From assembly GCA_014730275.1 (NCBI GenBank), contig WJIL01000130.1, positions 1-56,227 on the forward strand: a DNA stretch of 56,227 nt, in the 5' to 3' direction. Under the pieces are notes generated by a model, which was not told the origin of the DNA, ran no database searches, and was given only the letters and a program-made list of their open reading frames with translations. This DNA is from Candidatus Lokiarchaeota archaeon. GTDB lineage: Archaea; Asgardarchaeota; Thorarchaeia; Thorarchaeales; Thorarchaeaceae. How positions within the stretch are numbered: position 1 is the first letter of the stretch; every line of letters starts with the position of its first letter. Shown here in pieces: positions 4,704 to 32,031 of the stretch. The translations under genes and the position numbers were made by a program.

Positions 4704-7169
4704 TTGCCAAAAAAATTCAGCCCCAAAATCCAATCCAAGCGATGGAAACCGGAATCCGAAGAGGCAATACTGGATCTCTGGGAAGACGAAGATACCTACG
4801 AGTTCAATTCTGAGTCAGATAAAACAATCTACTCTGTTGATACTCCCCCACCATATCTTTCTGGGCCCATGCATATTGGGCAGATGCTGCATTACTGCCA
4901 GATAGATCAGATTGCCCGGTACAGAAGAATGCAGAGTCTAGAGGTCAATTTTCCTCTTGGCATAGACCGGAATGGCTTGCCTGTCGAATTGCGAGTAGAG
5001 AAAGAGTTCGGCATGGATATGCACAGCACTCCCCGCGCGGAGTTTGTTGCGAAATGCCGGGAGCAACTGGACAAGTACGAAGATGAAGTACTCGATGGTT
5101 TCAAGCGCCTCGGAATTGGATTCAATACCTATGAAGATGAGGGCTCATACCGAACGGATAGCCCTCGATATCGTGCGCTTACTCAAGCTACATTCATAGA
5201 CCTGTGGAGGAATGGCTTGGTCTACAGTGACTATCGACCAAACAATTGGTGCTTCGAGTGTGGCACTACAATTGCTGATGCTGAAGTAGAATACACAGAG
5301 CGTCCTACAACTCTGAGCTACATTCGATTCGATGTGGAAGGGAAAGAACCGCTGACCATAGCTACTACTCGACCTGAGCTATTGTGTGCATGCGGAGCCG
5401 TTTTCATTCATCCCGACGATGACCGTTACGAAGGCTACGAGGGGGAAACTGTGGATATACCTCTATATGACAAAAAGGTACCAATCATTGCGAGTCCTAC
5501 TGCAGATAAGGAATTCGGGACCGGTGCCCTCATGGTGTGTAGCTATGGTGACCAAGCTGACGTCATGGCTTTCAGAGATTACGCCTTGGAACCTGTTGCC
5601 GCCATATCCCCCGAAGGTGAAATGACCGAGGCTGCAGGTAAGTACGAGGGGATGACGATTGAGGAGGCCAAAGAGGCCATAATCCACGACTTGGACGAAG
5701 AGGGCTTCCTTCTGAAACAGGAGGAGACTATACAGCGAGCTCCACTCTGTTGGCGGAGCAAAACCCCCATAGAGTTCATTGCTATGGACGAATACTATGT
5801 GAAACAGACCCAATTCATTGATGACTTGAAGGAAATCGTGGAAGAGATTGATTTCTACCCCTCGCATCACAAACAAATTCTGATTAACTGGCTCAACAGA
5901 GTATCTGTAGATTGGCCGGTAAGTCGCAGGCGATACTACGGAACGGAGATTCCGATTTGGTATTGTAACAGTTGCGGGGAACCGGTTCTGCCCGATAACG
6001 AAGAGCTAGAATACTATCAACCGTGGAAAGAGGACCCACCCTTTGCAAAATGTCCGAAATGCGGTGCCAGTGAGGGTTTTCGGGGCGAAGAGCGCACATT
6101 TGATACGTGGATGGATTCGTCGATTTCATGCTTGCAGATTGTCGACTACATGCGCGATGAAGACTTGTTTGAGAAGGCATTTGGAAATGTGATGAGACCT
6201 CAAGGGAAAGATATTGTCCGAACTTGGCTGTACTACACTCTTCTCAGGACTTATCAGCTACTCGAAGAACCAGCTTTCAAAGAAGTATGGATTTCTGGCC
6301 ATGTTGTGGACAAACATGGAGAGAAGATGAGCAAATCTCGAGGCAATTCTCCCCCTCCAAGACCATTCATTGAGGAGTATGGGGCCGACGCTATTCGTAT
6401 GTTCGGTGTTCTGGAAGCGGGACTGGGTAGCGATATACGATTTTCGGAAAACCGATTGGCCGGAGTCTCCAAATTCATGACCAAGCTGTGGAACATAGCC
6501 AGATTCATCTCGATGTTTCCTATACCTGATGATCTCGAATTCAGTGATTTGACACCGGTGGACCAATGGATACTTGCAGAAACAAACCATCTCATTGAAG
6601 TAATCACTCCTGATTGTGAACAACTCGATTTTCACAAACCAGCTATAGAAATTCGTAGCTTTGCATGGAATTTCTTTGCAGATCATGTATTGGAATTGCT
6701 CAAGGGCCGTTGTTTCAACAATGGAGATCTATTTGGTGAAACGGAACAGAAATCTGCTTGGTTTGTACTACATCAGACCCTTCAGACTATTCTGAGGGCC
6801 TTGGCCCCCATAACCCCTTTCATCACGGATAGGATTTATCGTGAACTCTACAATGACGATGGTATTCATAGCCAAAGATATCCTACAAGCAATGACAAAT
6901 GGAAGTCTCCCCTGACTGATTACACCGAGCTTCTACTGAGCGTCAACGGTGGATTCTGGAAGTTCAAGCGTGAGAACGACATGTCCCTCAGACAGGGTCT
7001 ACCTGAAGCTGTCGTTCCAGAAGAACTGAAACCCTGGAAGAAAGACCTTATGGCGATGCATGGTATAGACGAGCTAAAGTTCGAGAAACCCGAAGATGAC
7101 GAATTAGTAGAAGCGGAGTTGCCCGAATCAAATCGGACAATATACATCTCCCCTCCGTCTGAAGACTAG
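4704..7169 (+). CDS. valS: Valine--tRNA ligase
   Basis: Class I aminoacyl-tRNA synthetase, 821 residues, charging tRNA-Val. The HIGH motif appears as HIGQ (residues 57-60, in TPPPYLSGPMHIGQ) and the KMSKS loop at 541-545. The CP1 editing domain contains TIATTRPELL and PTADKEFGTGALMV. Two zinc-knuckle-like Cys pairs are present (CFEC, and CNSC with CPKC). The start is TTG at 4704 with AAGGAGA about ten bases upstream. The final stop is TAG. The archaeal-type ValRS assignment is supported by the PPP-x-S-G-x-x-HIG signature. Confidence 0.92.
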   Translation: MPKKFSPKIQSKRWKPESEEAILDLWEDEDTYEFNSESDKTIYSVDTPPPYLSGPMHIGQMLHYCQIDQIARYRRMQSLEVNFPLGIDRNGLPVELRVEKEFGMDMHSTPRAEFVAKCREQLDKYEDEVLDGFKRLGIGFNTYEDEGSYRTDSPRYRALTQATFIDLWRNGLVYSDYRPNNWCFECGTTIADAEVEYTERPTTLSYIRFDVEGKEPLTIATTRPELLCACGAVFIHPDDDRYEGYEGETVDIPLYDKKVPIIASPTADKEFGTGALMVCSYGDQADVMAFRDYALEPVAAISPEGEMTEAAGKYEGMTIEEAKEAIIHDLDEEGFLLKQEETIQRAPLCWRSKTPIEFIAMDEYYVKQTQFIDDLKEIVEEIDFYPSHHKQILINWLNRVSVDWPVSRRRYYGTEIPIWYCNSCGEPVLPDNEELEYYQPWKEDPPFAKCPKCGASEGFRGEERTFDTWMDSSISCLQIVDYMRDEDLFEKAFGNVMRPQGKDIVRTWLYYTLLRTYQLLEEPAFKEVWISGHVVDKHGEKMSKSRGNSPPPRPFIEEYGADAIRMFGVLEAGLGSDIRFSENRLAGVSKFMTKLWNIARFISMFPIPDDLEFSDLTPVDQWILAETNHLIEVITPDCEQLDFHKPAIEIRSFAWNFFADHVLELLKGRCFNNGDLFGETEQKSAWFVLHQTLQTILRALAPITPFITDRIYRELYNDDGIHSQRYPTSNDKWKSPLTDYTELLLSVNGGFWKFKRENDMSLRQGLPEAVVPEELKPWKKDLMAMHGIDELKFEKPEDDELVEAELPESNRTIYISPPSED

Positions 7170-13772: not shown

Positions 13773-14059
13773 CTCAGAATCCTCGGTTCTCCGCTACTCG
13801 GAGTCCATGGATTAGTTGGAAGCAGACTATAATGTAAACATTTGCTATTGCGCCAGCATATGCATGGCACGTGGATTCTGGCTTCAGATTCACTCTTCAA
13901 TACCTGAATCTGTTGGAATAGCGTGTATTTCCGCGCGCCCTACTTTGTAAGTATGCGAGATTTTATATTCGCTTCTCAAGTACCTCGACATCGAGTTACC
14001 CCGAAATTCGGGCCGTCAGAACGCATGGAGAGGCTCCGAAAAGCTTGTTCCTTGCAAAG

Positions 14060-14356: not shown

Positions 14357-15890
<1,534 letters not shown>

Positions 15891-15895
15891 ACGTT

Positions 15896-15977
15896 CCCAC
15901 TCTAAGAGTGGGAGTACATGAGGTACAGACGAGCGGGGTTAGAGGAACAGGGAGTTTGCCCTCCTGACACTGTTGAG
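15896..15977 (+). other. 3' flank of 16S: hairpin and 3' strand of processing stem
   Basis: A 7-bp hairpin CCCACTC-TAA-GAGTGGG (15896-15912) follows the 16S end. It is followed by the processing-stem strand (15923-15977), which pairs with 14233-14286. A T-rich CTCTATATTTTGC run (about 15984) may end transcription. The same segment recurs, diverged, at 23.8, 24.8, 26.2, 27.2 and 32.7 kb. Confidence 0.85.
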
Positions 15978-16030
15978 CACCCTCTATATTTTGCATATGT
16001 TTTACAATGCTGAGTTAACATGCCGTCTGG

Positions 16031-16174
16031 CTAATCGGCGTTTTCGATTTTCTTTAGCAACTCTTTTGCTGCTTCGAGCTCCAGTCTCGTAGCGTTATTT
16101 CCCCATTTCTCCAGTTGCTTCTCGTAGATACTGATAGCTTCTTCCACATGGTTTCTTGCCTCAGAGGATTTCTA
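16031..16174 (-). other. In-frame continuation of the 897-aa gene after a TAG codon
   Basis: After the TAG at 16172-16174 the same frame continues for 46 codons (KSSEARNHVEEAISIYEKQ and on) to a second TAG at 16031. This continuation matches, residue by residue, the C-terminal parts of the fragments at 24947, 27292 and 30962 (for example EAIGIYE...KELLKQIENAE). So the TAG lies inside the family's conserved C-terminal repeat, at a position where the fragments have Gly. Confidence 0.85.
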
Positions 16175-18865
16175 GTCTTTCAACAAAGCGTGGGCATATT
16201 CAACAAGGGTCTCGGCAAGGTCGCCTTGCTCGAGCGGGTCTGCCGATGTCAGTTCCCGATGATACTTCACCTTTCGCTTCAACAGGTCAGCTCCACCTTC
16301 CTCCCCTAGTTCTTTGAAGATGATTTTTGGAATCAGCTCCTCGATTTTCCTCATCACATAGTTGTGATTGACCAGCTTCTTCTTCCACACTTCCTTGTCA
16401 CAGTTGAAATAGGACTTGACGGGTTTCTTCACCCTGTCTTTTGCCACCTCAACCGAAGAATCGACATCTTCTGGTCCAATCATCTCTGTGAACGTGAAGA
16501 GTCTGATTTTGTTTCTCCAATCTCCAGTAATGTTTGACTCAAAAGAGATTTCCAGCGCACCCTTCCATCGATGGACTTTCCCGCGCAGTATTTCGTTCTC
16601 AAGTTGCCTGAACGATCCCAGGGGAACTTGCTCTTGCCCAAGAATCTTCGCCATTCTCCAGTCTTCCCTGAAAACCATACCCTCTCGCGTGCTCGGGTCT
16701 GGCTGGAAACCAAGCTCGATGTTGTAAAGGTGGTTTTCAAAAATCAACCTCTTCGACTCCATCATGCTCAGGATATCACGAGTGTCTACAGATTCACTGA
16801 ATATATTGCGTAATCGCTCATTTTTGACAGATTTAGGAACATGTACCATCCAGCACCTTCCATGTTGATTGACCCCCTCAAGAACCGGACAGTATTCCTC
16901 CGCGTGGGTTACAGTTAACTTCACGGGCTCTTCTTTGGCATTGAGCAGTTCCGCACAGGTGAGGGGAAGCGGCGCATCAATTTCGACATACGGTTCTTTG
17001 CGGAAGACATAGGGCTTGAGAAGTGGCAGCTGCTCAAACTTGATGTCTTGATACGGGTCCCAGGTCAGGTACTGGTTCGGATTGACCGAGCTTTGTAGGG
17101 GAATCCCATCTACTACCGGCCGACGCAAAAGTGATAGAACTTCCGAGGTCCGATGAAACCGTCGTGTATCAACTGTTTCACCTTCGTGCTCGAACTCAAC
17201 AAGATAGTCCAACCCGTCTATGGAAAGGATACATTTTGCTGGGATGACATCTGTGAGGTCCTCTGCAATCTCTTCGAGTCTGCCTTTCACCCGTGCTTCC
17301 AATCCGGGGGGTACTGCTGACCCCCGCGGCTGCTTGATATTGGAATTACTCGCGTAGTCGATTCTCATGCCCCGTATCTGTGAGATGGCATCCCTCTTTC
17401 TAGGGATGATAGTCACTTCCCCTGACAGTTCCCATCCGCCGTCCGTGAACACCCATAAATACTCAATTCTATCAAGTGTCGCGACCATGATATTGTGGAG
17501 AGAATCGGTGCTCATCGCTTTCTCAAGACTGGCGGCCATCACATTGTGCGCATTCGCAGTCCAGCTGAATGCACCCCTGACATTCATCGGAATCCTGTCT
17601 TCCCAATAGCCGCTTACAAGCTTGGTCTTATCATATCGATCTTGGAGAAAGAGCCAGCACCCCTGCCCGTCACAGTCCAGCAGGAGACCGTGTCGAACTT
17701 GGGTCTGTGTAGGTACAGGAGTCGCGACAAGCTCCTTTGCACGCTTGTTCAGGTTAGACCAGACACTCCTCACACCGAACTTGGGAATCATTCGTTCGCG
17801 CGTTTCCTTATCCCTGAGCTCGAATCCGAGATGATGTAATTGCCAGGGACGGAGAACATCCCAGAGGGTCTCTATATCAGCGTCATCCAGTTCCGGGTGA
17901 ACAACTCTGATTGCAACCAGGAATAAGAACAGATGATTACCATACAGCGTTGCTATGTGCGGCCTGCTTTCAAGAATATCATCCAATGTTTTGCTAGCTT
18001 TGGGGAGGAGTCCATCGCCCAATCGTTTCTCACGATGCCATTCAAGGAGCCTCCATACATCATTTGAAAGCTCGTCATTCTTCAGGATAGAGACGACCTT
18101 CTTCAAAGCTTCAAGTGGTTCATCTCTTGTTGCTTTCTTCAGGTAACTTGATAGGGTGACCATCAATCTTTCCCAAAGATAATCTCCGCCTTTGACTTTT
18201 CGAGAAAGAAAGGCCACAGTCCGCCGTAAGCGACGGAGCTCTTTCCGCTGAACTTCTTCTTCGTCGATTTTATGGATTACGAGTCTCGCTGCGTCCGGAG
18301 GTCTATAGATTTGGGTAACAGGTTCGACATGTAGCTTATCATTCCTGTATCTTCTTGCTCGGGTGATTTCTCTCTCTGGTATGATCTGAAGGTTCTCGGC
18401 GTAGCTTTTGCCATACCCTTTCGCTTTGATTCGTACCCTGTACCTAACCCTGGACATGATACCTCCCGGGTTGGAGGGTCCTGCCGTCCGAAATTCTACT
18501 GATAGTGGTGTGAATTGGTACTTGCTTTTCTCATCCTGTTGCAGTTCTTTTCGAAGGAACGGCACGAGTTCTAGTGAGTCATACAGGAGATCAAGGCGGA
18601 GGTCTCTGTTATTCCTATCATGTATGAGGCTGTCAGCAGTTAGCAGTCCTCTACCGAGGCCTGTACCCTTCGATGATTTCTCCCTTTCGCCCCATTGCTT
18701 ACTTCTGAACCGGGCTGTCCAGCCTTCCAGAGGTGGCACTTGCGCGAAATAGGAAATTACTCTTTCCTCCGAATGCTCAATCATGATTCTGACATCGTCA
18801 AGCAAGGGGGCTTTCTGAGGGAATGCATACGGTCGCAATGGAAGATCCCATACTATGTCAGTCAC
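16172..18865 (-). CDS. Uncharacterised large protein of the 16S-linked family, 897 aa
   Basis: No family is recognised. The protein is soluble, charged and without signal peptide. Residues 1-280 are mixed and contain RVRYRVRIKAKGYG and a basic helix (RKELRRLRRTVAFLSRKVK). A middle part has DCDGQGCWLFLQDR and a beta-rich section. The C-terminal 90 residues are helical and TPR-like (KIEELIPKIIFKELGEE, LAETLVEYAHALL), cut by TAG inside the last repeat. It is 47 bases downstream of the 248-aa gene and convergent with 16S. Decayed 3' fragments of paralogs lie at 23.9, 24.9, 27.3 and 31 kb, so the family is multicopy. A role in a mobile or conflict system is inference. Confidence 0.75.
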   Translation of the reverse strand: MTDIVWDLPLRPYAFPQKAPLLDDVRIMIEHSEERVISYFAQVPPLEGWTARFRSKQWGEREKSSKGTGLGRGLLTADSLIHDRNNRDLRLDLLYDSLELVPFLRKELQQDEKSKYQFTPLSVEFRTAGPSNPGGIMSRVRYRVRIKAKGYGKSYAENLQIIPEREITRARRYRNDKLHVEPVTQIYRPPDAARLVIHKIDEEEVQRKELRRLRRTVAFLSRKVKGGDYLWERLMVTLSSYLKKATRDEPLEALKKVVSILKNDELSNDVWRLLEWHREKRLGDGLLPKASKTLDDILESRPHIATLYGNHLFLFLVAIRVVHPELDDADIETLWDVLRPWQLHHLGFELRDKETRERMIPKFGVRSVWSNLNKRAKELVATPVPTQTQVRHGLLLDCDGQGCWLFLQDRYDKTKLVSGYWEDRIPMNVRGAFSWTANAHNVMAASLEKAMSTDSLHNIMVATLDRIEYLWVFTDGGWELSGEVTIIPRKRDAISQIRGMRIDYASNSNIKQPRGSAVPPGLEARVKGRLEEIAEDLTDVIPAKCILSIDGLDYLVEFEHEGETVDTRRFHRTSEVLSLLRRPVVDGIPLQSSVNPNQYLTWDPYQDIKFEQLPLLKPYVFRKEPYVEIDAPLPLTCAELLNAKEEPVKLTVTHAEEYCPVLEGVNQHGRCWMVHVPKSVKNERLRNIFSESVDTRDILSMMESKRLIFENHLYNIELGFQPDPSTREGMVFREDWRMAKILGQEQVPLGSFRQLENEILRGKVHRWKGALEISFESNITGDWRNKIRLFTFTEMIGPEDVDSSVEVAKDRVKKPVKSYFNCDKEVWKKKLVNHNYVMRKIEELIPKIIFKELGEEGGADLLKRKVKYHRELTSADPLEQGDLAETLVEYAHALLKD

Positions 18866-18912
18866 ATAATGGCGATGGGAGGAAGAATCATAGAACGGGT
18901 GAACCGCCCGAC

Positions 18913-19659
18913 TCAGGTACTTGCCAGAAGTACGCTCAGGATTTGATCAGCATGAGGTCCCTGCTGGCGGCGCTTGGCTGCCCTATTGCGTGGACGCTTG
19001 AACCCCCAGTGACCTGCGTCCCCTCCCGTATAGACATAATCCAAGAACGCTGACAATCTTCTTACTTGGAGTAATGCATACTTGCTGAACTCTTTGGGGT
19101 CAACTCTGGAAATGAAGGCCTTAGCGCAGAGATTACGTCCGTGAGATCGTATCATATCAATGAAATCGAGCTCTGGGAGGGTGGGACCATGGGCTGTCTC
19201 GACTGAACCAAGCTTGTTGTTTCCTTCATATCCCCAGATTGGCACAGTACCTCTTTGGCCAATCTCCTCCGGTGTGGGCATGGGATACAGACAAACTGCA
19301 TAATCTCGTAGAATGGCCCCGTGTATGTTGAGGAGCTTGTTAAGATATCCGACCGGCCCGTCTTTCTCGCTTCTTATCCGTTTGTTCTCTGTGTTTCCGT
19401 ATCTGGCCGTACTCTGCCATATGAAGTCAAGCTCATCAAAACGGAGGTACTTTTCTTGTTTGGTAACTGGGAAGAAGTTTGGATTTCCTTTCTGCTTGCC
19501 TATTCTCCACTCGTTCGTTGCTCCCCTCAATTTGCTGAGTGCCCTTGTGTGGATGTCTTTGGTGTCCTTGTTGACACGCTCCCTGAGCAAATCCACCAGA
19601 GCTCTAAGGCCAACTAATTCAGCCTTTACGATTACCTTGGCAGGATCATCAGGATACAC
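18913..19659 (-). CDS. Uncharacterised protein, 248 aa, partner of the 897-aa gene
   Basis: Starts at GTG 19659, with an in-frame TGA 18 bases earlier. The protein is basic at its end (RPRNRAAKRRQQGPHAD), with alpha-helical segments and no membrane part. It shows KYLRFDELDFIWQSTARYG, GYLNKLLNIHGAILRDYAVC and EFSKYALLQVRRLSAFLDYVY. No catalytic motif is recognised. It precedes the 897-aa gene on the same strand by 47 bases, so the two probably form an operon. It could bind nucleic acid, judging by the basic tail only. Confidence 0.65.
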   Translation of the reverse strand: MYPDDPAKVIVKAELVGLRALVDLLRERVNKDTKDIHTRALSKLRGATNEWRIGKQKGNPNFFPVTKQEKYLRFDELDFIWQSTARYGNTENKRIRSEKDGPVGYLNKLLNIHGAILRDYAVCLYPMPTPEEIGQRGTVPIWGYEGNNKLGSVETAHGPTLPELDFIDMIRSHGRNLCAKAFISRVDPKEFSKYALLQVRRLSAFLDYVYTGGDAGHWGFKRPRNRAAKRRQQGPHADQILSVLLAST

Positions 19660-19904: not shown

Positions 19905-21617
19905 TTGGTGAAGCAGATGGGTCGCTCTAGCGGTGTAACGATAACGGTCAAGGTTCCCATCAGATGGGGAGTCATGACTAAAAGGCAGAAGAATCGCCTA
20001 TCTCGCATCACCAGTAGAGATACCCGTGTTATCAAGGCCTATCTTGGTATCATAGAGCGATACGAAGAGAAGCTCTTGGTTGGCAAACGGAAGACGCGGA
20101 TTGATGCCGGTGAGATCGACAAACTAACCCTGCGGACAAAGAATAGGCCATCGGTTCCACATGACTTCAAGAAACGGTTCCCGAACATTTCTACCAATGA
20201 ACTGCAGGAATGCCGGGAAACAGCTATTGGGATGTGGAAGGTCTATCTTGAGCGAGGGGAGAGCAAACCCCTGAAAGCTGAGGGGTACAGTCCGTGCAAG
20301 CTTCCCCGGCATATCTTCAAACAGCGCTTTGAGTTTGTATATACTCCTGAGAATGAAATCAAGCACTGGCTGGACTTGCGGGACTCGCTGGATTCTGTAC
20401 GGGAGGGGAGACGCCGGCATGACAGGCTGGTGATTCCGCTCAGTCCCAACTCCTATCATCTTAATCGTATAGATGAGGGGGACTTGAAATCCGTGCAGAT
20501 TGTGAAAGACGGCAATCGGAAGTGGTGGGTGCTGTTCAAGGTCAGGTTGCATCCCGAGCCAGTTGATATGTCAGAGAATCCGCCTGCAGTCATCGGTATC
20601 GATCTTGGCATCAAGAAAGCTGTCTGCTCGGCTGTGCTTACTCCAGATGGTCTCAAGCAGGTTAGGTACTGGACACAGCATGAGAAAGCCGAGGAAATCG
20701 AGAGATATGATGATATGGTCGCCAGTCTCCAGCGTAAGATGGAGAAGCTACGTGCCGATGGGGACTCTGTAGATGGTGTCCTTGGTCGACTGGATGAGAT
20801 TCGAACCAAGCGTAATGACATCAGCAAGGACTACGACCGGAAGTTGGTTCGGGTGTTAACAGACCATATTCTAGAGCTTGCTACATCGTATGACATCCAT
20901 GTGGCGATTGGCCGACTCAAGGGCATTCGAAACAGGGCTAGGCGCGGAAATGGGACTTCCCGTGCGTTCCGCAAGATGATCAATAGGTGGTCGTTTGCAC
21001 GGTTAACCAAAGCCCTGAAGCACAAGCTCAGTATGGAAGGCTTTCCGCCGGTGCGTGTTCGTGCAGTATCAGAAGCGTGGACGAGCATCACCTGTCATAA
21101 GTGTGGCACTACCGGTCTTCGGCCCAAGCAGAGCTTCTTTCTCTGTGACACCTGTGGATATCGCGACAACGCAGACAAGAACGCAGCGATCAACATCGCC
21201 AAGCGTTTGATTACGCTCATTCCTTCACTTCGGGATGAGGCAGGACTAGGGATGTGGCTCTCGGATTCCGAGGGCGCCCCAAAGACCCGGAGGAGCACAC
21301 GCTCTTATGGGAAGTCCTCACGCCCCCAGGGAACGCCAGTCCCGTCTGACGGGGCGTCCGTGGCTGACCGCTATGAACAGCTGACTCTCGAGTCGGTTGG
21401 GAGCGGTACCGACCCCGCCATGGCAAAAACTGTGGAACAACCGCCTGCCGCTACTGAGGCTCACAAGGCAGCTGGCACTCGTGGCAATAACGTGCAGCGG
21501 ACTGAGGCTACGTTCTGGAAGAGGAACAATGTTCCTGGGACACCAGACAAAGCTCGTGAACAAATAGCGGGTGAGATACCGCTATTCCCCGGTGACGGCA
21601 GTCACGAGAAGGGCTGA
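19905..21617 (+). CDS. tnpB: TnpB-like RNA-guided nuclease (IS200/IS605-group) with altered RuvC-II site
   Basis: Protein of 570 residues. RuvC-I is IGIDLG with Asp233. The zinc finger has Cys397, Cys400, Cys414 and Cys417. RuvC-III is RDNADKNAAINIA with Asp424. In the RuvC-II strand, where TnpB proteins usually carry Glu (ED-L-K-G-I-R), the sequence reads AIGRLKGIR, with Gly336. A Glu at 390 (VSEAWTS) just before the zinc finger might substitute. The last 135 residues are low-complexity and may only be the translation of the overlapping guide RNA. No tnpA is nearby, so it is a tnpB-only element. TTG and GTG starts are both possible. Confidence 0.9.
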   Translation: MVKQMGRSSGVTITVKVPIRWGVMTKRQKNRLSRITSRDTRVIKAYLGIIERYEEKLLVGKRKTRIDAGEIDKLTLRTKNRPSVPHDFKKRFPNISTNELQECRETAIGMWKVYLERGESKPLKAEGYSPCKLPRHIFKQRFEFVYTPENEIKHWLDLRDSLDSVREGRRRHDRLVIPLSPNSYHLNRIDEGDLKSVQIVKDGNRKWWVLFKVRLHPEPVDMSENPPAVIGIDLGIKKAVCSAVLTPDGLKQVRYWTQHEKAEEIERYDDMVASLQRKMEKLRADGDSVDGVLGRLDEIRTKRNDISKDYDRKLVRVLTDHILELATSYDIHVAIGRLKGIRNRARRGNGTSRAFRKMINRWSFARLTKALKHKLSMEGFPPVRVRAVSEAWTSITCHKCGTTGLRPKQSFFLCDTCGYRDNADKNAAINIAKRLITLIPSLRDEAGLGMWLSDSEGAPKTRRSTRSYGKSSRPQGTPVPSDGASVADRYEQLTLESVGSGTDPAMAKTVEQPPAATEAHKAAGTRGNNVQRTEATFWKRNNVPGTPDKAREQIAGEIPLFPGDGSHEKG

Positions 21618-21640
21618 ACACGGAAGTTGATGATACAGTG
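21300..21640 (+). ncRNA. Candidate omega RNA (reRNA) overlapping the tnpB 3' end
   Basis: In known TnpB systems the guide RNA scaffold overlaps the 3' end of tnpB and its guide comes from beyond the element end. Here the segment is GC-rich, full of short inverted repeats (GTCCCGTCTGACGGGGC, ATAGCGGGTGAGATACCGCTAT) and codes a non-conserved tail. The exact ends cannot be set without the element boundary. Confidence 0.35.
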
Positions 21641-21943
21641 GATTTCACTCACTCTAAATCGATGGGACGGGGAAGAACGTGAGAGTAATTCTTGCCTTCA
21701 AGGAATTGTATTCTCCGTTCTCCCACAGACAGGTCGGACCTTGTTACGATTCGGTGGAAAGAGCCATATTGGTTAAGTAACATGTTTCATGTATTCCCTG
21801 TGTCGATTTCTGATTTTCGACTAAGGCCGGCGTAGATTGACAAGTATTACAGAATTTTTGACATTCTTCCTTATTCATTCCAAGTTAAATAGCATATTGA
21901 AGAGGTTTATTTATGTTCGACTCAATGAATTAATTGAAGGTTT
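21618..21943. other. Gene-free stretch after tnpB
   Basis: Holds the inverted counterpart of the left-end motif (about 21643-21655), then AT-rich sequence. TTAAATAGCATATTG and GGTTTATTTATG near 21890-21915 could be the promoter of the SDH-protease operon. Nothing else is recognised. Confidence 0.4.
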
Positions 21944-22975
21944 ATGTCCACAGCATTGAAGAAGAATCGGTTACGGCTAATAGAGGAGATTGAAGACACT
22001 CGCAAATCTCGATTAATAGTTTGTATTTTGGGTGACCGAAGAAACGCTGAAACAAAAATTGCTAGTGATATTCTAACCCCTCTTAGTAAACATCTAACAA
22101 AAATGGGAAAACAGAATCGCATTGATTTGATGCTCTATAGTACAGGGGGAATCACCATGGCTGGTTTTGCTTTGGTCAATCTGATTAGGGAGTTCACCGA
22201 TGAATTCAGAATTATTATCCCCTCTAAGGCTCTCAGCTGCGCGACACTAATCGCTTTGGGTGCAGATAGCATATTTATGACTAGATTGGGGCTTTTGAGT
22301 CCTATAGACCCATCAGTTGGAACACCTTTTGCTCCAATACTTCAAGTCCCTGGTGCCCCAAAGGGCAACACGCGACAAGTTCCAATTTCGGTAGAGGACG
22401 TAATGGGTTTTCTTGGCTTAGCCGAAAAATCTTTCGACCTAAAGAGTGAAAAATCTAGGTTGGAAGTTTTTAAAGAACTTACAAATAAGGTTCACCCCAT
22501 TGCACTTGGGTCAGTATATCGATCCAGGCAGCAGATATCATTTTTTGGAGAATCCCTTTTATCAATGCATATGGATGATGAGGACCAAATTGACAAAACT
22601 GTTAAGGTCCTAACACAGGAGCGATTCTCACATAACTATTTGATGGGGCGCCGAGAAGCAATCGAAACGTTTGAACTCAATATCGAAGAGGAAGATTTGG
22701 CGACAGAACAACTGGTGATGAAACTTTTTAGTCTATATGTTCAAGCTCTGCTATTGAATCAGCCCTACCATCCAGAATCGGAACTTAATGAGGGGGACTC
22801 AGCTGTTGCTGAATTGAATAGAGCTATTATTGAAACCACTGGATTGACCCATGTATTTAGAACGAAAAAGGAAATAAATCGTGTCGAAATAAAACCTCCT
22901 GCTGTTCCTCAACCTACCATTGGGTATCAAGAACGAGTGCTAGAGGAAGGATGGTTCCAGAATGAAAAGATTTAG
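21944..22975 (+). CDS. ClpP-like serine protease of the SDH (serine dehydrogenase proteinase) family
   Basis: Protein of 343 residues with a ClpP/crotonase-type core. IDLMLYSTGGITMAGFALV gives the oxyanion GG motif, and SKALSCATLIALGADSIFM holds the probable nucleophile Ser in the usual S-x-A(T)-x-I context. A His or Asp partner would follow (SPIDPSVG). No signal peptide or membrane segment, unlike SppA. First gene of a tight operon with a small acidic protein and a Doc toxin, so the protease may process one of them. Family call from motifs; function in the operon is inference. Confidence 0.82.
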   Translation: MSTALKKNRLRLIEEIEDTRKSRLIVCILGDRRNAETKIASDILTPLSKHLTKMGKQNRIDLMLYSTGGITMAGFALVNLIREFTDEFRIIIPSKALSCATLIALGADSIFMTRLGLLSPIDPSVGTPFAPILQVPGAPKGNTRQVPISVEDVMGFLGLAEKSFDLKSEKSRLEVFKELTNKVHPIALGSVYRSRQQISFFGESLLSMHMDDEDQIDKTVKVLTQERFSHNYLMGRREAIETFELNIEEEDLATEQLVMKLFSLYVQALLLNQPYHPESELNEGDSAVAELNRAIIETTGLTHVFRTKKEINRVEIKPPAVPQPTIGYQERVLEEGWFQNEKI

Positions 22976-23704: not shown

Positions 23705-23780
23705 TTATGAATGAACACTCTTTGCCCATGAAATTCTCCCCTTGAACATCCAATAGATGAGCGTATTTGTCGCTTTGATA

Positions 23781-23976
23781 ATCACCTCCTACGTTTCTAC
23801 CTCGTAGAGGTAGAGCAGCTGAAGTATCGGGCCCGCGGGCAGGTTAGAGAACAGGGAGTTTACCCAACTGGCACTGTTGAGCACCCTCTATATTTTACAA
23901 AATATTGCAGATGATTACAACGTTAAGCTGAGATGCCGTCTTTCTACTGACTATTTTCAATTTTCTTGAGTAGCCA
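23781..23976 (+). repeat. Copy B of the 16S 3'-end repeat
   Basis: Begins precisely with ATCACCTCCT, the last 10 bases of 16S, followed by ACG and a hairpin CTACCTC-GTA-GAGGTAG (23797-23813) in place of CCCACTC-TAA-GAGTGGG. Then come the processing-stem remnants (GGTTAGAGAACAGGGAGTTT, GGCACTGTTGAGCACCCTCT) and the end of the 897-aa family gene (LLKKIENSQ, stop TAG, minus strand). It ends abruptly before the vapB gene. Confidence 0.85.
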
Positions 23977-24052
23977 TATCGTGCGTTCCCGTCGGCTTCA
24001 AGGCATGAGTTTAAATTGCTTCATGCACATATATACACAGAATGTGAACAAA

Positions 24053-24289
24053 ATGGCATACAAAACAATTTCGCTCTCGGAGGAAGCATACGAGATTCTC
24101 AAGAATGCCAAGAAAGAGAACGAGAGCTTCAGTCAAGTTGTCATCAGACTAGCAAGTAGACGGTCGCTTGATGCTTTTGTCGGATGTATTTCCAAGGAAT
24201 CAGTTGAAAGGCTATCAGATGCAATGGACACATTTCGGAAAGAGCGAGGCAAAATCTGGTTTGAGAGCATGGAAGAGATGGTGGGTTGA
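24053..24289 (+). CDS. vapB: VapB-type antitoxin
   Basis: Protein of 78 residues from ATG 24053 (MAYKTISLSEEAYEILK). It fits the archaeal VapB antitoxin family with an N-terminal KTISLSEEAYE strand-helix and a basic QVVIRLASR. It overlaps or abuts the VapC gene and is a close paralog of the orphan at 31729 (same RRSLDAFVGCISKESVE run). Confidence 0.8.
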   Translation: MAYKTISLSEEAYEILKNAKKENESFSQVVIRLASRRSLDAFVGCISKESVERLSDAMDTFRKERGKIWFESMEEMVG

Positions 24290-24296
24290 GATTGCC

Positions 24297-24689
24297 TTGA
24301 TAGCTGACTCATCTTTTGTGATAGATCTCATGAGGGAACATGAAGAAGCTTTGAAAAAGCTGGCTGAGATTAGGGAGAACAATCGCCTACAGTATATTGC
24401 ATCGCCTACCGTCATGGAGCTGGCAGTTGGCGTTGCATTAGCTGACCTTCCAACACAAGAGCAGGAAAAAATCGACGACATCCTCACAGGGTTTCAAGTT
24501 ATTCCCCTTGATACTGATTGTGCATGGCGAGCAGGAATAGAGACAGGTATACTTCGAAAGAATGGGAAAATTACTGACCCCATAGATGGACAAATTGCGG
24601 GAATTGCTCTTCAGAATGAGGAGCCCATAGTAACACGCAATCTGAAACACTTTGAGTTGTTCGAAGGCCTCCAAGTTGAAACATATTAG
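24297..24689 (+). CDS. vapC: VapC-type PIN-domain toxin
   Basis: Starts at TTG 24297, seven bases after the vapB stop. PIN acidic residues are Asp in LIADSSFVIDL, Glu in TVMELAVG and Asp in DPIDGQIAGIAL, then VTRNLKHFE. These proteins are Mg-dependent endoribonucleases that cut tRNA or rRNA. About 130 residues, normal for the family. Confidence 0.85.
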   Translation: MIADSSFVIDLMREHEEALKKLAEIRENNRLQYIASPTVMELAVGVALADLPTQEQEKIDDILTGFQVIPLDTDCAWRAGIETGILRKNGKITDPIDGQIAGIALQNEEPIVTRNLKHFELFEGLQVETY

Positions 24690-24726: not shown

Positions 24727-24946
24727 GTATCCGTAGCGGAAGCTGTGGATGGAAGCGAATGAGAGTTATTCTCATTCTCTATCACTCACCTCCTACGTTT
24801 CTACCCGTAGAGGTAGAGCAGCTGAAGTATCGGGCCCGCGGGCAGGTTAGAGAACAGGGAGTTTGCCCTCCTGGCACTGTTGAGCACCCTCTATATTTTA
24901 CAAAATATTGCAGATGATTACAAGGCTGAGCTGAGATGCCGTCTTT
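24727..24946 (+). repeat. Copy C of the 16S 3'-end repeat, with 32-nt insert
   Basis: GTATCCGTAGCGGAAGCTG then GGATGGA (24727-24753) is the 16S tail. A 32-nt insert (24754-24785) with a perfect hairpin GAATGAGA-GTTAT-TCTCATTC splits it before TCACCTCCT. Then follow ACG, a hairpin around TCTACC/GGTAGA, the stem sequence and CACTGTTGAGCACCCTCT, as in copies A and B. The flank continues into a 3' fragment of the 897-aa family gene. Confidence 0.88.
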
Positions 24947-25305
24947 CTATTCGGCGTTTTCGATTTGCTTTAGCAACTCTTTCGCCGTTTCGAGTTCAGC
25001 ACGAATACTATCACTGTCCCATTTCTCTAGGTATCCTTCGTAGATACCGATTGCTTCTCCCACGCGCCTTTCCGCTGGAGCGGATTTACCATTTTCCCAT
25101 AACGCCTCAGCATATTCCACCAGTGTTTCAGCCAGATGTATTTCTTCGACGGGATCTGACGCCGCCTGTTTTCGATGATACTGGATTTTGTGCTTCAACA
25201 GGTCAGCTCCACCTTCCTTTCCTAGTTCAGCAAAGATGATGTTCGGAACGAGTTCCTCGATTTTCCGCATCACGTATTTGTGGTTGGTAAGATTGTTCCC
25301 ATAAT
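24947..25305 (-). pseudogene. 3' fragment of an 897-aa family gene
   Basis: Encodes about 108 residues (from VMRKIEELVPNIIFAELG to KELLKQIENAE) homologous to the C-terminus of the 897-aa protein, including the part beyond its TAG codon. The upstream part of the gene is missing. The frame is intact within the fragment; expression is unknown. It adjoins repeat copy C. Confidence 0.85.
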
Positions 25306-27004: not shown

Positions 27005-27291
27005 TCAATCTCATCTATTATTCTAAACGAGTCCTCATATATTCTCCTTTTCATAGTGTTCCAATACCTCCTTTACTTATAGACTCGAAAATGAAGAGAG
27101 ACTTTGGCTTTCTATCAGACACATCATGTGCTTTCCTCCTTACAAACACCAAAGCGAGAGATACAAAACCGTGCTGGGTTAGCAGTGCAACGCAGGTTAC
27201 TCAAGAAACTGAATCTCCCTTTCATGTGCGCTGTTGAGCACCCTCTATATTTTGCATATGTTTTACACTGCTGAGCTGAGATACCGTTTTT
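27005..27291. repeat. Region with copy E of the 16S-flank repeat
   Basis: The first 200 bases hold a T-rich promoter-like section and nothing recognised. From about 27229 CTGTTGAGCACCCTCTATAT and TTGCATATGTTTTACA match 15971-16003, followed by CTGAGCTGAGATACCG. The 5' half of the repeat has been lost or replaced (GGGTTAGCAGTGC). Confidence 0.75.
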
Positions 27292-27402
27292 CTACTTGCG
27301 GTTTTCGATTTGTTTCAGCAGGTTGTTTGCCACTTCGAGCTCTCGTCGCAGATCATCATCGTCCCATTTCTGCAGTTGCTTCTCGTAGATACTGATGACT
27401 TC
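27292..27402 (-). pseudogene. 3' tip of an 897-aa family gene
   Basis: On the minus strand the frame reads EVISIYEKQLQKWDD, then LEVANNLLKQIENRK and TAG, matching the last 36 residues of the family. It is truncated at 27402, where the ABC permease gene's stop begins, so the permease gene arrived at this junction. Confidence 0.8.
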
Positions 27403-28182: not shown

Positions 28183-29072
28183 CTCAAGAGTATTCTTCTG
28201 TGGATTTCTGTAACCATTACAATGAACAATATGCTTCCAATAATCCAAATATTGACTACTACTCTGAGTGCTGCTATGGGGACTTCCATCAAATTCCATA
28301 CCGATCTTGCGCCTCTCGTGTTGAATATGGGCTGATAGAATATATATAGCACACGGAACTCTGAATGTCGAAGTCCAGCTCCTTCCATAGGTATCGTATC
28401 TAAGTAATTGGAAAGAGGGGATGGGAAGAACATCATATAAGCTGCCACCGCTCCAAGGATTGGGTTCCTGAGTAGTTTCCCCAACAAGTAGGCGAAAGAA
28501 AACAGGAAGACATCATGGATTAGATAGACGAATATCGGAATCCCCATCGTCTGAATAAGCAACAGAGAAAAATCAAGATTCACGGATGCGATGTTTATTG
28601 AATAGGTTAAAATTGCTAGTACTAATAGACCTAAACGACATACAATTATAGGACCAACGGCAGCGAGAAACCGTGTGATAGAGAGAACTCGACTACTGAT
28701 TGGTTGAGTCATCAATGTCTTATCTTCCGCTTCTATGGTATCGGTCAGGGCATGGAATATAACAAAGGTCTGAGATGGAAGAATAAGATTCTGAATCGAA
28801 AACTGAATCGATCGCATGCTGTACGCTAGGCCGTACATAGCATCACTTGGCATGTCATAATTACCTATCCGGATTATGTGATTCTCCATGAAACCAGGTA
28901 GACTCCGGAAGATGTCCCAGAGGCCCCAAACTATAATGAATCCTAATGCTATCAGAAACAGCCCGCTGATACTGTGAGAAAGGGTTATTTTCATCAGAGC
29001 TAAAAACGATCTCAGTGACGACCGCAGCCTTGTTCCCAGCTTCCTCAGCTTGCTCATATCAGTCATCATCAT
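28179..29072 (-). CDS. ABC-2 type transporter permease, subunit 1
   Basis: 297 residues with hydrophobic segments at IALGFIIVWGLWDIF, ALTDTIEAEDK-linked segment, ILTYSINIASV and VVNIWIIGSILFIVMV. It contains QPISSRVLSITRFLAA, the loop shared with the other permease. Its start overlaps the end of the ATPase gene, and its stop overlaps the second permease start, so the three are translated in coupling. Confidence 0.8.
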   Translation of the reverse strand: MMMTDMSKLRKLGTRLRSSLRSFLALMKITLSHSISGLFLIALGFIIVWGLWDIFRSLPGFMENHIIRIGNYDMPSDAMYGLAYSMRSIQFSIQNLILPSQTFVIFHALTDTIEAEDKTLMTQPISSRVLSITRFLAAVGPIIVCRLGLLVLAILTYSINIASVNLDFSLLLIQTMGIPIFVYLIHDVFLFSFAYLLGKLLRNPILGAVAAYMMFFPSPLSNYLDTIPMEGAGLRHSEFRVLYIFYQPIFNTRGARSVWNLMEVPIAALRVVVNIWIIGSILFIVMVTEIHRRILLR

Positions 29073-30036
29073 CGTCTCCGAACATAATTCGTTCTAGTTC
29101 TCCTTTTACAGGTTCAAATCTCTGCATGGTTAGGCCATGGTATTGTACTCCCCTCGAAACCAGATCGAAGAGGCTTTTCTCTTCACCCTTGATATACAAT
29201 CGGTGTCCATCTCTTGTTACTTCTTTAAGGGAGCCATTCTCTTGGAGATAATTGTAGAGCACCTCCGGTTTATCCACCTCTACCAGAAATCTGGTCGGTC
29301 GTTTGATTTCACCAATTTCTGCCATGGTCCCAGCTGTTATGATTTCTCCTTTCGAGATGATCCATGCGTTCGTACAGATTTGCTCCAAGTCAGCCAAGAT
29401 ATGACTTGAGATGAGAAAACTAGTGTTATGCTCCTTGTAATATTGATTCACCGTTTCCATGAACAGTCTTCGCCCATCAGGGTCAAGAGATTTTGTTGGC
29501 TCATCCAAAACCACAAAACGTGGCGATCCAACCAGCGATACAGCGAGACCCAGACGTCTACGCATTCCTGCTGAATACGTTGAGATTTTTCTGTTTTGAG
29601 CGCCCGACATCCCAACTTGATTCAAGAGACTCTCTGTTTCCTTCTCAGCCGAGCTTCCGTCAAACCCTCTTATTTCACATATATACTTCAGGTATTTCCG
29701 CCCGCTTAGCGGGGGATACTGTGGTTCTTCAAGTAGGAAGCCCATTTCTGCCTTCATTCTTGTCGATTCTGACCATGGATCATAACCGAGGACTTCAAGA
29801 TTACCAAAAGATTGATGCAACAACCCCGCAATTATCTTGATTAGCGTGGTTTTCCCTGCACCATTCGGCCCCACTAGCCCAAGAATGCCGCCGTCAAAAG
29901 AACCAGAGATACTCACAAGCGCTCGTACCTGTTTCTGTCTAGGAACGAAACCATCAAGAGTTATGTTTCGATAGATCTTAGACAGGTCCTTGAGCTTGAG
30001 TAGAGAATCATAACGCCTACTTTCTTGTTTATTCAT
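29059..30036 (-). CDS. ABC transporter ATP-binding protein
   Basis: 325 residues. Walker A GLVGPNGAGKTTLIKI, Q-loop region LLEEPQYPP, signature YSAGMRRRLGLA, Walker B RFVVLDEPTKSLDP and H-loop ISSHILADLEQ are present. The C-terminal 80 residues (KRPTRFLVEVDKPEVL) are the usual extra domain of ABC-2 export ATPases. Energises the two permeases downstream, and may export the secreted protein at 30123 or a small compound; cargo is not determined. Confidence 0.92.
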   Translation of the reverse strand: MNKQESRRYDSLLKLKDLSKIYRNITLDGFVPRQKQVRALVSISGSFDGGILGLVGPNGAGKTTLIKIIAGLLHQSFGNLEVLGYDPWSESTRMKAEMGFLLEEPQYPPLSGRKYLKYICEIRGFDGSSAEKETESLLNQVGMSGAQNRKISTYSAGMRRRLGLAVSLVGSPRFVVLDEPTKSLDPDGRRLFMETVNQYYKEHNTSFLISSHILADLEQICTNAWIISKGEIITAGTMAEIGEIKRPTRFLVEVDKPEVLYNYLQENGSLKEVTRDGHRLYIKGEEKSLFDLVSRGVQYHGLTMQRFEPVKGELERIMFGDDDDD

Positions 30037-30122
30037 TATATGTCACCATCACTTTCTCTGTACCTTGGGAACAAAAAAGGAGAGAGTTCCTTTCCATTGA
30101 AAAAAACTAGTATCCCTTTTAA

Positions 30123-30788
30123 CTAGTCTGGGGCGGTTTCTGACCATGTGATTTGGTCGACCGTGAGTTTGGCCGGGGCGTAATGATCGGTTCGAGCGTT
30201 TACATCTATCGCACCAGAGTCGTTCATTACAGTGACTCTTAAGACAACAGCTAATTTGTATGTGTAACCGCTATACAGATTACAGCTGAACCCCTCAGTC
30301 TCGCTGTCATCTGTATTGACATCCTCATAATCATCCCAATTAAAGGCAGGACCTGTGAACGTGTATGACCACGCGCTTTTGGATTCTTTTTCGTCCTCGT
30401 TTGCGTCCATGATAAGAAAGCGAACCTCTATTTTTACTTTGCCACCCCATCCACAATTTAATCGAAAGTCGATATCCCATTGAGCTGTGAAGTACCATGT
30501 AGATGTAATAGTCTCGGACATTTCTACATCTTGAGCAACCCAGGCCTCTCCGTAGAGTCCTGCACCATACCAAAGGGGCCAAACCTTTGGATTCACTTGT
30601 ATCTCACATATTCCTGATATTGCGTCAGCATCCACAGTATGGTATTCACCGGATGTGGTTTCATATGTATCCGAATCGTCGTAGGATGGGGTAGCATTAC
30701 CGGACCATAGCGCTGATACATCAGAAACATTTGATGCTATAATGGTAATTGCAACCATAACTAAACATAATCTAACTCTTTTTCCCAT
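30123..30788 (-). CDS. Exported Trp/Tyr-rich protein, 221 aa
   Basis: Starts at ATG 30788 (MGKRVRLCLVM; a longer frame to 30821 is less likely). The signal peptide is MVAITIIASNVSDVSA. The mature part is rich in Trp, Tyr, Asp and Thr and contains repeated beta-strand patterns (TSTWYFTAQWDIDFRLNCGWG). It ends LTVDQITWSETAPD, with no anchor. It lies upstream of the ABC transporter genes on the same strand. No family recognised. Confidence 0.6.
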   Translation of the reverse strand: MGKRVRLCLVMVAITIIASNVSDVSALWSGNATPSYDDSDTYETTSGEYHTVDADAISGICEIQVNPKVWPLWYGAGLYGEAWVAQDVEMSETITSTWYFTAQWDIDFRLNCGWGGKVKIEVRFLIMDANEDEKESKSAWSYTFTGPAFNWDDYEDVNTDDSETEGFSCNLYSGYTYKLAVVLRVTVMNDSGAIDVNARTDHYAPAKLTVDQITWSETAPD

Positions 30789-30821
30789 ATTGTTACATTC
30801 CCAAGGACTATTGAAGTCCAT

Positions 30822-30961
30822 ATTTATAATTAATAATAATTGTTTATAAGGTTTTCATTTCTTTTTTGAGGGAAATCCACCCAAATCTCATTTGATAAGA
30901 TATTAGTGACAATCTGTGAGAAATCAGTGTGACATAAAGCTGCTATTCTTTCTTTCATAGT
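30822..30961. other. Gene-free AT-rich stretch
   Basis: Contains repeated AATTAATAATAATTG upstream of the exported-protein gene, its probable promoter region, and nothing else recognised. Confidence 0.4.
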
Positions 30962-31290
30962 TGTCAGCAGTTTTTCGCTGCTTCGAGGTCTCCTCGCGTA
31001 TCTCTGTTGTCCCATTTCTGCAGGTAATTTTCGTAGATACCGATTGCTTCTTCCACATGTTTCCTCGCTGGAGACGTATTGCCATCTTCCCACAACATCT
31101 CAGCATATTCCACCAGTGTTCCAGCCAAATGTATTTCTTCGACGGGATCTGACGCCGCCCGTTTTCGATGATAGTGGATTTTGTGCTTCAACAGGTCAGC
31201 TCCACCTTCCTCCCCTAGTTCAGCAAAGATAACCTTCAGAATCAGTTCTTTGATTTTCCATATCACGTAGTCGTAGTCAGTGACTTTCTC
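30962..31290 (-). pseudogene. Frameshifted 3' fragment of an 897-aa family gene
   Basis: Encodes KIKELILKVIFAELGEEGG through HVEEAIGIYENYLQKWDN, then LEAAKN. One base appears deleted after GCGAAAA, so the frame ends in C-stop instead of ELLK. The upstream gene part is lost. The flanking 16S-stem repeat is absent here, unlike in the other copies. Confidence 0.8.
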
Positions 31291-31366
31291 TCAATCGCGG
31301 TACTAGGTACAGGAAAGATGGATGATGAGTTTATACGTACTCATAGGCATATGTATAATGATACTG

Positions 31367-31609
31367 ATGGCCAAAAACATAGCGTTGGCAGATGATGTCT
31401 ATAAGGATTTCAAACGCTTGAAGAGAGAAAACGAGAGCTTCAGCGATGTGATTCGCAGGCTCATGAAGAATCGTGGGGAGATAGCGGACCTTGCTGGTTC
31501 TGCAACACTCAGTCTAGACGAATGGTTGGAGATGAAGAAGCTGAAGGAAGAACAGGCGAAGGAAGATCAGAAACGAGCAGAATCGCTGCTATCTCAACAA
31601 GATGAATGA
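31367..31609 (+). CDS. VapB-type antitoxin, apparently orphan
   Basis: 80 residues from ATG 31367 (MAKNIALADDVYKDFKRLK). The helix with ESFSDVIRRLMK matches the VapB family and the C-terminal part is a charged coil. No PIN gene follows; the next 100 bases contain an open stretch (VILLDESSVSNQRVAILL) resembling a decayed PIN start. Confidence 0.7.
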   Translation: MAKNIALADDVYKDFKRLKRENESFSDVIRRLMKNRGEIADLAGSATLSLDEWLEMKKLKEEQAKEDQKRAESLLSQQDE

Positions 31610-31728
31610 AGGCTCCGCTGTTACTATGTGATACTGCTTGATGAATCATCTGTTTCCAATCAACGTGTTGCTATCCTATTGGCAAATAAGTTGAAAACCA
31701 TCACGCAGGCACTCAGAGTGTGAAGACT

Positions 31729-31956: not shown

Positions 31957-32031
31957 ATGAGGGGTTCCCTCGGAATCAACCTCTCGGCAAAATTATATGT
32001 CTACATATGTATGTGTAGAATACGATGAACG

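Follow-up and report, generated by a model that had tools for sequence, protein, structure and literature searches.

A broken giant gene beside the 16S rRNA gene of a Thorarchaeaceae genome, with guide-like TnpB matches at the sites of tiny introns that suggest RNA-guided intron homing

Introduction

What is the pair of open reading frames (ORFs) lying just downstream of the only 16S rRNA gene copy detected in the genome of Candidatus Lokiarchaeota archaeon (GenBank assembly GCA_014730275.1; Thorarchaeaceae in GTDB), and why does it recur nearby in fragments? The ORFs occupy positions 16,031 to 19,659 of contig WJIL01000130.1, of which positions 1 to 56,227 (the window, 56,227 nucleotides, nt) were analyzed. 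An initial annotation, made without database searches, described a two-gene unit of 248 and 897 amino acids (aa), tied to a repeat flanking the 16S rRNA gene and possibly mobilizing a genomic island or conferring immunity. Asgard archaea, which include the Thorarchaeota, are the group nearest to eukaryotes. The window genome (G000; 3.64 Mb, 151 contigs, completeness 99.5%) was compared with relatives through a phylum-wide search of 228 genomes; genomes, contigs and loci are designated G, C and L, respectively.

A single broken giant gene

Together, the 248-aa and 897-aa ORFs represent the opposite ends of a single giant gene, which encodes 1,400-1,945 aa in relatives. There, both parts belonged to single ORFs and stood about 530 aa apart, as in G006, where one 1,744-codon frame held the 248-aa part (C131:25948-26679) and the 897-aa part (28273-30969). 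The 897-aa protein shared 36% identity over 915 aa with the giant of L041 (1,723 aa) and 83% with that of the same-genus genome G001, while the 248-aa protein shared 51% and 91%, respectively. About 530 central residues were missing from the window gene. The match to G001 broke at 18929-18942, where 14 bases aligned to both sides, as is typical when sequence between short repeats has been deleted. Two G001 contigs carrying the halves of the giant shared an exact 127-nt overlap, hence an uninterrupted copy exists in this sister species. Both ORFs are real, but as remnants of one gene rather than as the two-gene unit, or co-occurring gene pair, first supposed.

The window feature is the wreck of a giant from a Thorarchaeota mobile-element family, whose members combine a giant, a divergently oriented TnpB with a guide-bearing 3' region and sometimes an IS607 transposase. 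The TnpB partner had been overlooked in the initial annotation. The main features are as follows:

14357-15890, + strand: archaeal small-subunit (16S) rRNA gene, full length (Rfam RF01959, 1317.5 bits)
15820-15849, + strand: 30-nt bulge-helix-bulge (BHB) intron in the universal 1492R site (GTCGTA^ACAAGG), from alignment, covariation and BHB geometry
15971-16032, + strand: repeat termed "16S flank" in the initial annotation, probably the left (giant-side) element end
16172-18865, - strand: 897-aa C-terminal part of the giant, corresponding to L041 residues 777-1676
18913-19659, - strand: 248-aa N-terminal part of the giant, corresponding to L041 residues 2-245
18929-18942, - strand: deletion junction, 14 bp aligning to both flanks of the sister-species gene (overlapping G001 matches)
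19905-21617, + strand: RNA-guided nuclease of the TnpB family (570 aa), oriented divergently to the giant, its RuvC glutamate in the alternative place (ExxxxxxCxxC)
21618-21737, + strand: presumed 3' scaffold of the omega-RNA, reaching GGTCGG, the right-end terminus common to 16S-type elements
21671-21699, + strand: first post-scaffold stretch (GGAAGAACGTGAGAG...), resembling 16S rRNA with intron 2
21738-21749, + strand: guide g1 (ACCTTGTTACGA), reverse complement of a universal 16S 3' site, 12 nt exact

Guide-like matches and tiny introns in RNA genes

Past the TnpB stop codon, 16S-type elements ended in GGTCGG or a close variant. When 41 TnpB 3' flanks were scanned against two intronless 16S rRNA genes, exact matches of 12-27 nt started directly after this terminus in eight elements, at four universal sites: ACCTTGTTACGACT (g1, antisense; window, L042, L238), GGATCACCTCCT (g2; L041, L223, L244), ACGTCCCTGCTTCTTGC (g3; 27 nt in L042, 18 nt in L046, 17 nt in L059) and ACTAGGGATTCC (g4, antisense; L041). 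Some elements carried two tandem 16S-matching stretches. All four targets were directly preceded by GGAT or GAAT (GRAT), as expected of a TnpB target motif, and a reversed-sequence control gave only scattered 11-12-nt matches. The window g1 matched 12 nt exactly from the terminus, against at most 9 nt for 27 non-cognate guides. Whole-genome pattern searches located g1 and g2 after the terminus beside TnpB in further genomes; g1 was restricted to sites beside TnpB, in four genomes of at least three genera, and the sequence following it differed. One-mismatch pattern hits in G009, G001:C15, G041 and G055 had no TnpB and were discarded as chance.

Guide matches were also seen outside 16S. The guides of L053, L086 and L097 matched the adjacent tRNA by 11, 12 and 14 nt, lengths that no non-cognate guide equaled, and the L089 guide matched 12 nt of an intronless tRNA-His from its first base, the intron falling at guide position 3/4. 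The L083 and L093 guides did no better than non-cognate ones, and the L098 match was rejected because its flank is the tRNA itself, leaving no independent match. Whole-guide matching at 16 nt over 24 kb lacked power, which exact matching to the adjacent gene had. Downstream of TnpB in L043, L044 and L045, the guide-like TGCATGCAGCCGATC stood just before a gene resembling MvhD (GCMQCMYAA...), possibly reflecting the targeting of a protein gene.

The 16S rRNA genes of Thorarchaeota carried inserts at six positions, of a 30-32-nt BHB type. In the window, 30 extra nt interrupted the universal GTCGTAACAAGG inside the target of the element's own guide g1, and their removal restored GUCGUAACAAGG with BHB geometry. 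A same-length insert was present at this site in eight genomes and absent from other Thorarchaeota; its covariation reached 0.58 against a shuffled mean of 0.23 (0 of 500 shuffles). Covariation supported the best-sampled introns, at sites 1460 and 1493. A BHB test requiring a 4-bp central helix, two 3-nt bulges and a restored exon was scored on 20 16S and 3 tRNA inserts, nearly all of which beat shuffled introns (weakest, 871_G018, 94/300). The same 30-nt type occurred in tRNA-His (L089), tRNA-Thr (L053) and tRNA-Tyr (L093). By this geometry the inserts correspond to archaeal BHB introns, and their splicing is predicted.

Introns and guide targets coincided. Five of the six 16S intron sites fell within the four guide targets (1311 and 1317 in g4, 1358 in g3, 1460 in g1, 1493 in g2), and the recognition site likewise spanned the intron site for tRNA-His in L089. 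Random placement of sites anywhere, in conserved windows or in GRAT-preceded windows reached five of six in 0 of 200,000 trials each. The nuclease gene adjoined its intron-bearing target gene in the window, L040/L059, L041, L042 and L223. Thirteen archaeal 16S intron loci have been published, including 907/908 and 1391 (PMC4496867); by our own position matching, site 871-873 looks like 907/908 and the other five seem to lie outside the published loci. Near 871-873, the 16S rRNA genes of L225, L228, L222 and L224 carried BHB-like inserts of 30 or 47 nt, for which no matching TnpB guide was found.

Guides matching the 16S rRNA gene precisely at tiny-intron sites suggest RNA-guided intron homing. 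The right-end bases could instead be fossil attachment sites, left by past integration of elements whose TnpB does not target the rRNA gene, with introns coinciding merely because both favor universally conserved positions. The scattering of 16S tail copies in the island fits this account, as do the flank copies of L063 and L097, which lie in direct orientation as in gene-tail displacement, the reported conservation of intron sites (PMC2814812) and the intact state of half of the resident targets. However, the g1 match is antisense to the adjacent 16S rRNA gene, which in-place integration would not be expected to produce; L086 and L053 match their adjacent tRNA in inverted orientation; g1 was kept across genera while the following sequence changed; and introns lay inside targets far more often than conserved-window or GRAT-preceded-window nulls allow. 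We regard fossil sites as unlikely, though deserving some weight. Classic tRNA-type attachment was rejected at the tRNA loci, where no direct repeat of the tRNA 3' end was found at the far element end.

Distribution of the family and its TnpB partner

Giants were found in 34 Thorarchaeota-family genomes and in 3 genomes of one other family. The named carriers were nearly all Candidatus Thorarchaeota, with one Heimdallarchaeota metagenome-assembled genome (MAG). Thorarchaeota relatives held about 50 copies, with up to 17 matches per genome; a genome scan with P0001 alone as query returned no relative. Linkage to the 16S rRNA gene held in the closest relatives (L040, L041, L042), whereas other copies lay beside tRNA, RNase P RNA, 5S RNA and protein genes. 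The initial question of whether homologs always stand at 16S or tRNA ends is thereby largely answered in the positive, members recurring beside RNA genes.

Two loci next to protein genes showed repeated borders. The L067 element (1-760) lay beside a ribosomal protein gene, apparently L37Ae, with GGTTCCGTAACTG at both element ends. The L063 element lay at the 3' end of a protein gene, whose intact tail (...YAQEYLYYFSRSKGVKPES*) stood at the giant side (5500-5645) and a diverged second copy at the TnpB side (13832-13890).

Nearly every complete giant with enough flank was divergent to a TnpB-type protein, Heimdallarchaeota copies included. The exceptions were L060, without TnpB, and a 1,420-aa subgroup mostly without TnpB opposite the giant, in which a serine transposase gene or its fragments preceded the giant (L075, L081, L078). 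The window TnpB matched Cas12f1-like_TNB in Pfam (2.9e-14) and guided_TnpB in NCBIfam (3.5e-33). In a motif alignment of 40 partners, type I proteins (550-620 aa) displayed a glycine at the usual RuvC-II glutamate and an invariant glutamate in ExxxxxxCxxC, while type II partners (700-760 aa) kept the canonical RuvC-II glutamate. The RuvC D-E-D residues were present in both, as D, Ealt, D in type I and D, E, D in type II; the alternative glutamate (Ealt) arrangement has been described for Fanzor and some TnpBs (PMC10711439). The glycine had raised the suspicion that type I is a nuclease-dead, TldR-like regulator, which was rejected given the invariance of the alternative glutamate. Both types swapped within one giant cluster, and the 16S-linked element of G001 carried a TnpB different from that of the window despite giants 83-91% identical, leaving the giant as the constant part.

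That two ordinary host genes stand by chance beside the 16S rRNA gene has next to no probability left. Both are open reading frames, as such genes would be, but all relatives have them as one gene, which occurs in multiple copies, shows a patchy distribution and is tied to TnpB; this already contradicts the account. No housekeeping family with a fixed chromosomal location was found among the matches.

Mobility

An IS607-type serine transposase, of the class with an N-terminal helix-turn-helix (NF033518, 1.8e-41 for an L067 ORF), lay immediately beside the giant end in relatives (L067, L070, L074, L075, L082, L051), with fragments in others. G001 contained a dozen or more derivatives, each about 520-570 bp long, in which the giant-side end was fused to the one on the TnpB side; their borders were sharp and their flanks unrelated, and window positions 34500-34765 matched such a derivative (75.5% identity over 233 nt, E 7.7e-39). 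The transposase of relatives and the sharp-ended deletion derivatives together identify a transposon family, and by these traits the giant/TnpB family is, or was, mobile, in line with the initial placement of the proteins in a mobile element. The earlier remark that no integrase, DDE or HUH enzyme is visible holds for the window, although a TnpB nuclease is present there and IS607 transposases occur in relatives. The left-end repeat agreed in position with the giant-side end of the derivatives, which places the window terminus approximately.

It could be proposed that the giant itself is the family transposase and TnpB an accessory. The Y1 HUH TnpA (PF01797) was absent from G000, G001, G004, G006 and nearly all giant-bearing genomes searched, which also ruled out an IS200/IS605-type Y1 transposase as the mobilizer; no resolvase-family protein or serine transposase reached the cut-off in G000 or G001, yet G001 holds many deletion derivatives; and giants share a conserved nuclease motif. 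This proposal is nonetheless improbable, since the IS607 transposase beside giants gives mobility a known enzyme, and fold comparison of the giant revealed no transposase of the DDE, HUH, tyrosine or serine kind.

Predicted domains of the giant

The giant gave no significant match in Pfam, NCBIfam, PADLOC, PHROGs or PDB sequences, and none of the viral contigs searched contained the family. Neither window protein matched Pfam even at E<=1, which bears out the first impression that no known family is recognizable. Conserved residues (L041 numbering) nevertheless drew a PD-(D/E)XK motif, with D389 and D/E417-x-K419 in 48 of 48 sequences having letters there, followed by a QxxxY motif (Q471, Y475; 49 of 49); E376 and G386 were also conserved. 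From this motif and the predicted strands, the giant appears to carry a Cas4/RecB-like, QxxxY-type PD-(D/E)XK nuclease motif, in a region without Pfam match. The AlphaFold model of residues 1-830 was confident (predicted local distance difference test, pLDDT, 91; predicted template modeling score, pTM, 0.89), and its top Foldseek matches in PDB were RAD51 paralogs, RadA and KaiC (E 1.6e-5, about 240 residues). Strand order and a WLDL motif would place the RAD51-like domain at about 590-770. The C-terminal half (pLDDT 85, pTM 0.49) had no significant Foldseek match in PDB or BFVD; the tetratricopeptide repeat (TPR)-like C-terminus first suggested found a faint echo in one relative (Pfam TPR, E 0.04-0.07) and in weak TPR fold matches. 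These domains point to a role of the giant in end processing and recombination.

Because the window deletion took both the nuclease and the RAD51-like region, what survives of the giant is most likely inactive. A mobilizing function of the two surviving proteins is now unlikely for the same reason. An immunity function found no PADLOC match or other support, and the basic tail of the 248-aa protein, taken at first for a nucleic-acid contact, is simply the point where the deletion cuts the giant.

Other remnants and neighboring genes in the window

The other window fragments are further remnants of the same giant 3' end (24947-25286, 27301-27402 and 30973-31274; 72-77% identical, E 1e-15 to 1e-44). 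Sequence comparison thereby recovered these three 3' fragments as well as the recurring 16S-flank repeat noticed initially, the latter with further copies at 23803, 24806, 27232 and 32735. The 897-aa ORF begins about 280 nt beyond the 16S 3' end. The remnants are distributed as follows:

23779-23981, + strand: displaced copy made of 16S tail end (ATCACCTCCTACGTT), spacer and left-end repeat
24727-25286, + strand: displaced 16S tail with an intron-2 type insert, spacer, left-end repeat and giant 3' fragment
27232-27402, + strand: left-end repeat and short giant 3' fragment
30973-31274, + strand: giant 3' fragment
34500-34765, + strand: remainder of a short deletion derivative, comprising the right end (TnpB side) and a terminus of its own, from its match to a G001 derivative

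Tail copies also occurred elsewhere. Away from the 16S rRNA gene, L227 (G009:C9, 10054-13504) carried the 16S 3' tail (AACAAGGTATCC...CCTCCTACG) three times, at a spacing of about 1.5-1.9 kb; ATCTCT stood in front of two of these copies, and the array looks like displacement at the g1 site.

Small ORF pairs between the window repeats (23966-24689 and 31322-32684) look like VapBC-type toxin-antitoxins. Directly downstream of TnpB, 21944-22975 encodes a ClpP-like, SDH-type serine protease (PF01972, 4.6e-16); this region was kept in G001 at 93%, whereas TnpB was not. A 111-nt tRNA at 1381-1491, matched by Rfam and not by ARAGORN, is long and so probably contains an intron.

A proposed mechanism of RNA-guided collaborative homing

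The reading we lean towards, as moderately probable, is an RNA-guided form of collaborative homing in which introns would shield the resident rRNA gene and the giant would handle repair. The right end would be transcribed into an RNA directing TnpB, through its fixed guide, to cut the uninterrupted universal RNA gene of an element-free cell, here the 16S rRNA gene at GTCGTAACAAGG. Repair from the incoming locus would copy in both the element and the linked RNA gene, which has a 30-nt BHB intron within the guide target. The intron would hide the resident gene from the nuclease and, being spliced out of the RNA, would leave the ribosome unharmed. The giant would most likely process the broken ends and promote recombination. 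In the window, an internal deletion would have inactivated the giant, while TnpB, guide and intron-bearing 16S rRNA gene persist. A bolder form, a natural cleave-and-rescue system in which fixed tandem TnpB guides act against 16S and tRNA genes, linked copies are immunized by introns and a giant combining nuclease and RAD51-like parts drives the copying of the locus, might equally well prove right or wrong.

Several observations weigh against this homing scheme. Ten guides could be paired with a resident 16S rRNA gene; the cognate intron interrupted the target in five pairs (G000-g1 in the window, G001-g1, G004-g3, G005-g2, G006-g2) and the target was uninterrupted in the other five (G001-g3, G006-g4, G012-g2, G018-g1 and G004-g1, the last with its first base mismatched), whereas collaborative homing calls for a resident target that is always interrupted. 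G001-g3 is the most awkward: 17 nt match and GAAT precedes, yet its target is intact. About three interrupted pairs in ten are expected from site frequencies, and the association at genome level was not significant, in a test that was underpowered. The sixth intron site (871-873) yielded no guide, introns occurred without a detected guide in G023, G029, G011, G002 and G027, and no target was recognized for the guides of many elements. The 16S matches, mostly 12-14 nt, are short relative to known TnpB guides, and RNAalifold predicted no pairs in the last 60 nt of the right end, leaving an RNA structure there unsupported. The Walker A lysine was absent from the RAD51-like domain, where S.SGxSA replaces GxxxxGK[ST] in most copies. 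Finally, all genomes compared were MAGs. The intact targets could reflect TnpBs that are decayed or inactive, guides that are too short, or the loss of introns or elements.

The window stretch at 21671-21699 was identical at 24-25 of 29 nt to the intron-2-bearing 16S rRNA genes of G006 and G002, with the same start after GGAT, and is a possible guide against an intron-bearing allele. This resemblance, as if aimed at a rival allele, and the elements with two tandem guides could also speak for defense or regulation, TnpB and the giant silencing or destroying rival rDNA-linked elements or intron-bearing alleles instead of homing. Such a function is very improbable: no PADLOC or other defense match was obtained, and unless introns give protection, it is difficult to see why guides should be directed against essential genes of the cell itself. 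Under the cleave-and-rescue reading, guides would even follow introns, in an arms race inside the rRNA gene.

Comparison with known systems and significance

Collaborative homing is known from cyanophages, where the free-standing nuclease F-CphI targets the intron site of the neighboring psbA gene, which has a group I intron (PMC6083498). Both systems place a free-standing nuclease beside an intron-containing target, with an intron in the recognition site that prevents self-cleavage and can spread along in cyanophages and would do so in Thorarchaeota. In Thorarchaeota, however, the nuclease is a TnpB, specificity would come from an RNA guide, the introns are ORF-less 30-nt BHB introns, the targets are rRNA and tRNA genes and cleavage is presumptive. 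Archaeal 16S BHB introns with LAGLIDADG homing endonucleases (PMC4496867) include short hairpin ones, and I-PogI, as cited in that paper, is the one known case of a nearby nuclease cleaving at the site of a hairpin intron; unlike these, no LAGLIDADG gene was linked to the Thorarchaeota introns.

IS607 elements with Ealt TnpB share the serine TnpA of some copies, the alternative RuvC glutamate and the presumed right-end guide. The Thorarchaeota elements, however, include a giant of 1,400-1,945 aa, frequently lack TnpA and have guides that are more than a record of the site into which the element inserted. In plasmids, TnpB is known to work as a gene drive favoring the insertion sequence that encodes it (PMC11870625), the cutting of element-free alleles biasing inheritance towards the element as the proposed homing would; the presumed targets here differ in being single-copy chromosomal RNA genes, addressed by fixed tandem guides and apparently protected by introns rather than by insertion. 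A model of tRNA-Thr disruption in Caldiarchaeum also associates intron gain and tRNA fragments with a neighboring recombinase-encoding mobile element (PMC3293823), but invokes integration and recombination, not RNA-guided targeting. Aloposons, too, are mobile elements of Asgard archaea that carry giant genes and occupy tRNA sites, and HeimM2 of Heimdallarchaeum sits between a 16S rRNA and a tRNA gene (PMC8813620). By their description, aloposon giants are tandem, measure 3,000-6,000 aa and accompany a ParA-like gene, whereas those described here are single and at most 1,945 aa long; no longer ORF matched in the profile search of the 228 genomes.

The family adds to the Asgard archaea large proteins, putatively PD-(D/E)XK and RAD51-like, without database relatives. 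With introns at 1492R and neighboring primer sites, these archaea would be missed in 16S surveys. If the proposed homing is true, it would link three questions: the reason for small introns at universal positions of archaeal rRNA and tRNA genes, the role of TnpB beyond retaining its own transposon and the way in which selfish elements may safely target the most conserved gene of the cell. A long-standing idea, that RNA genes are shielded from mobile elements by their introns, becomes directly testable.

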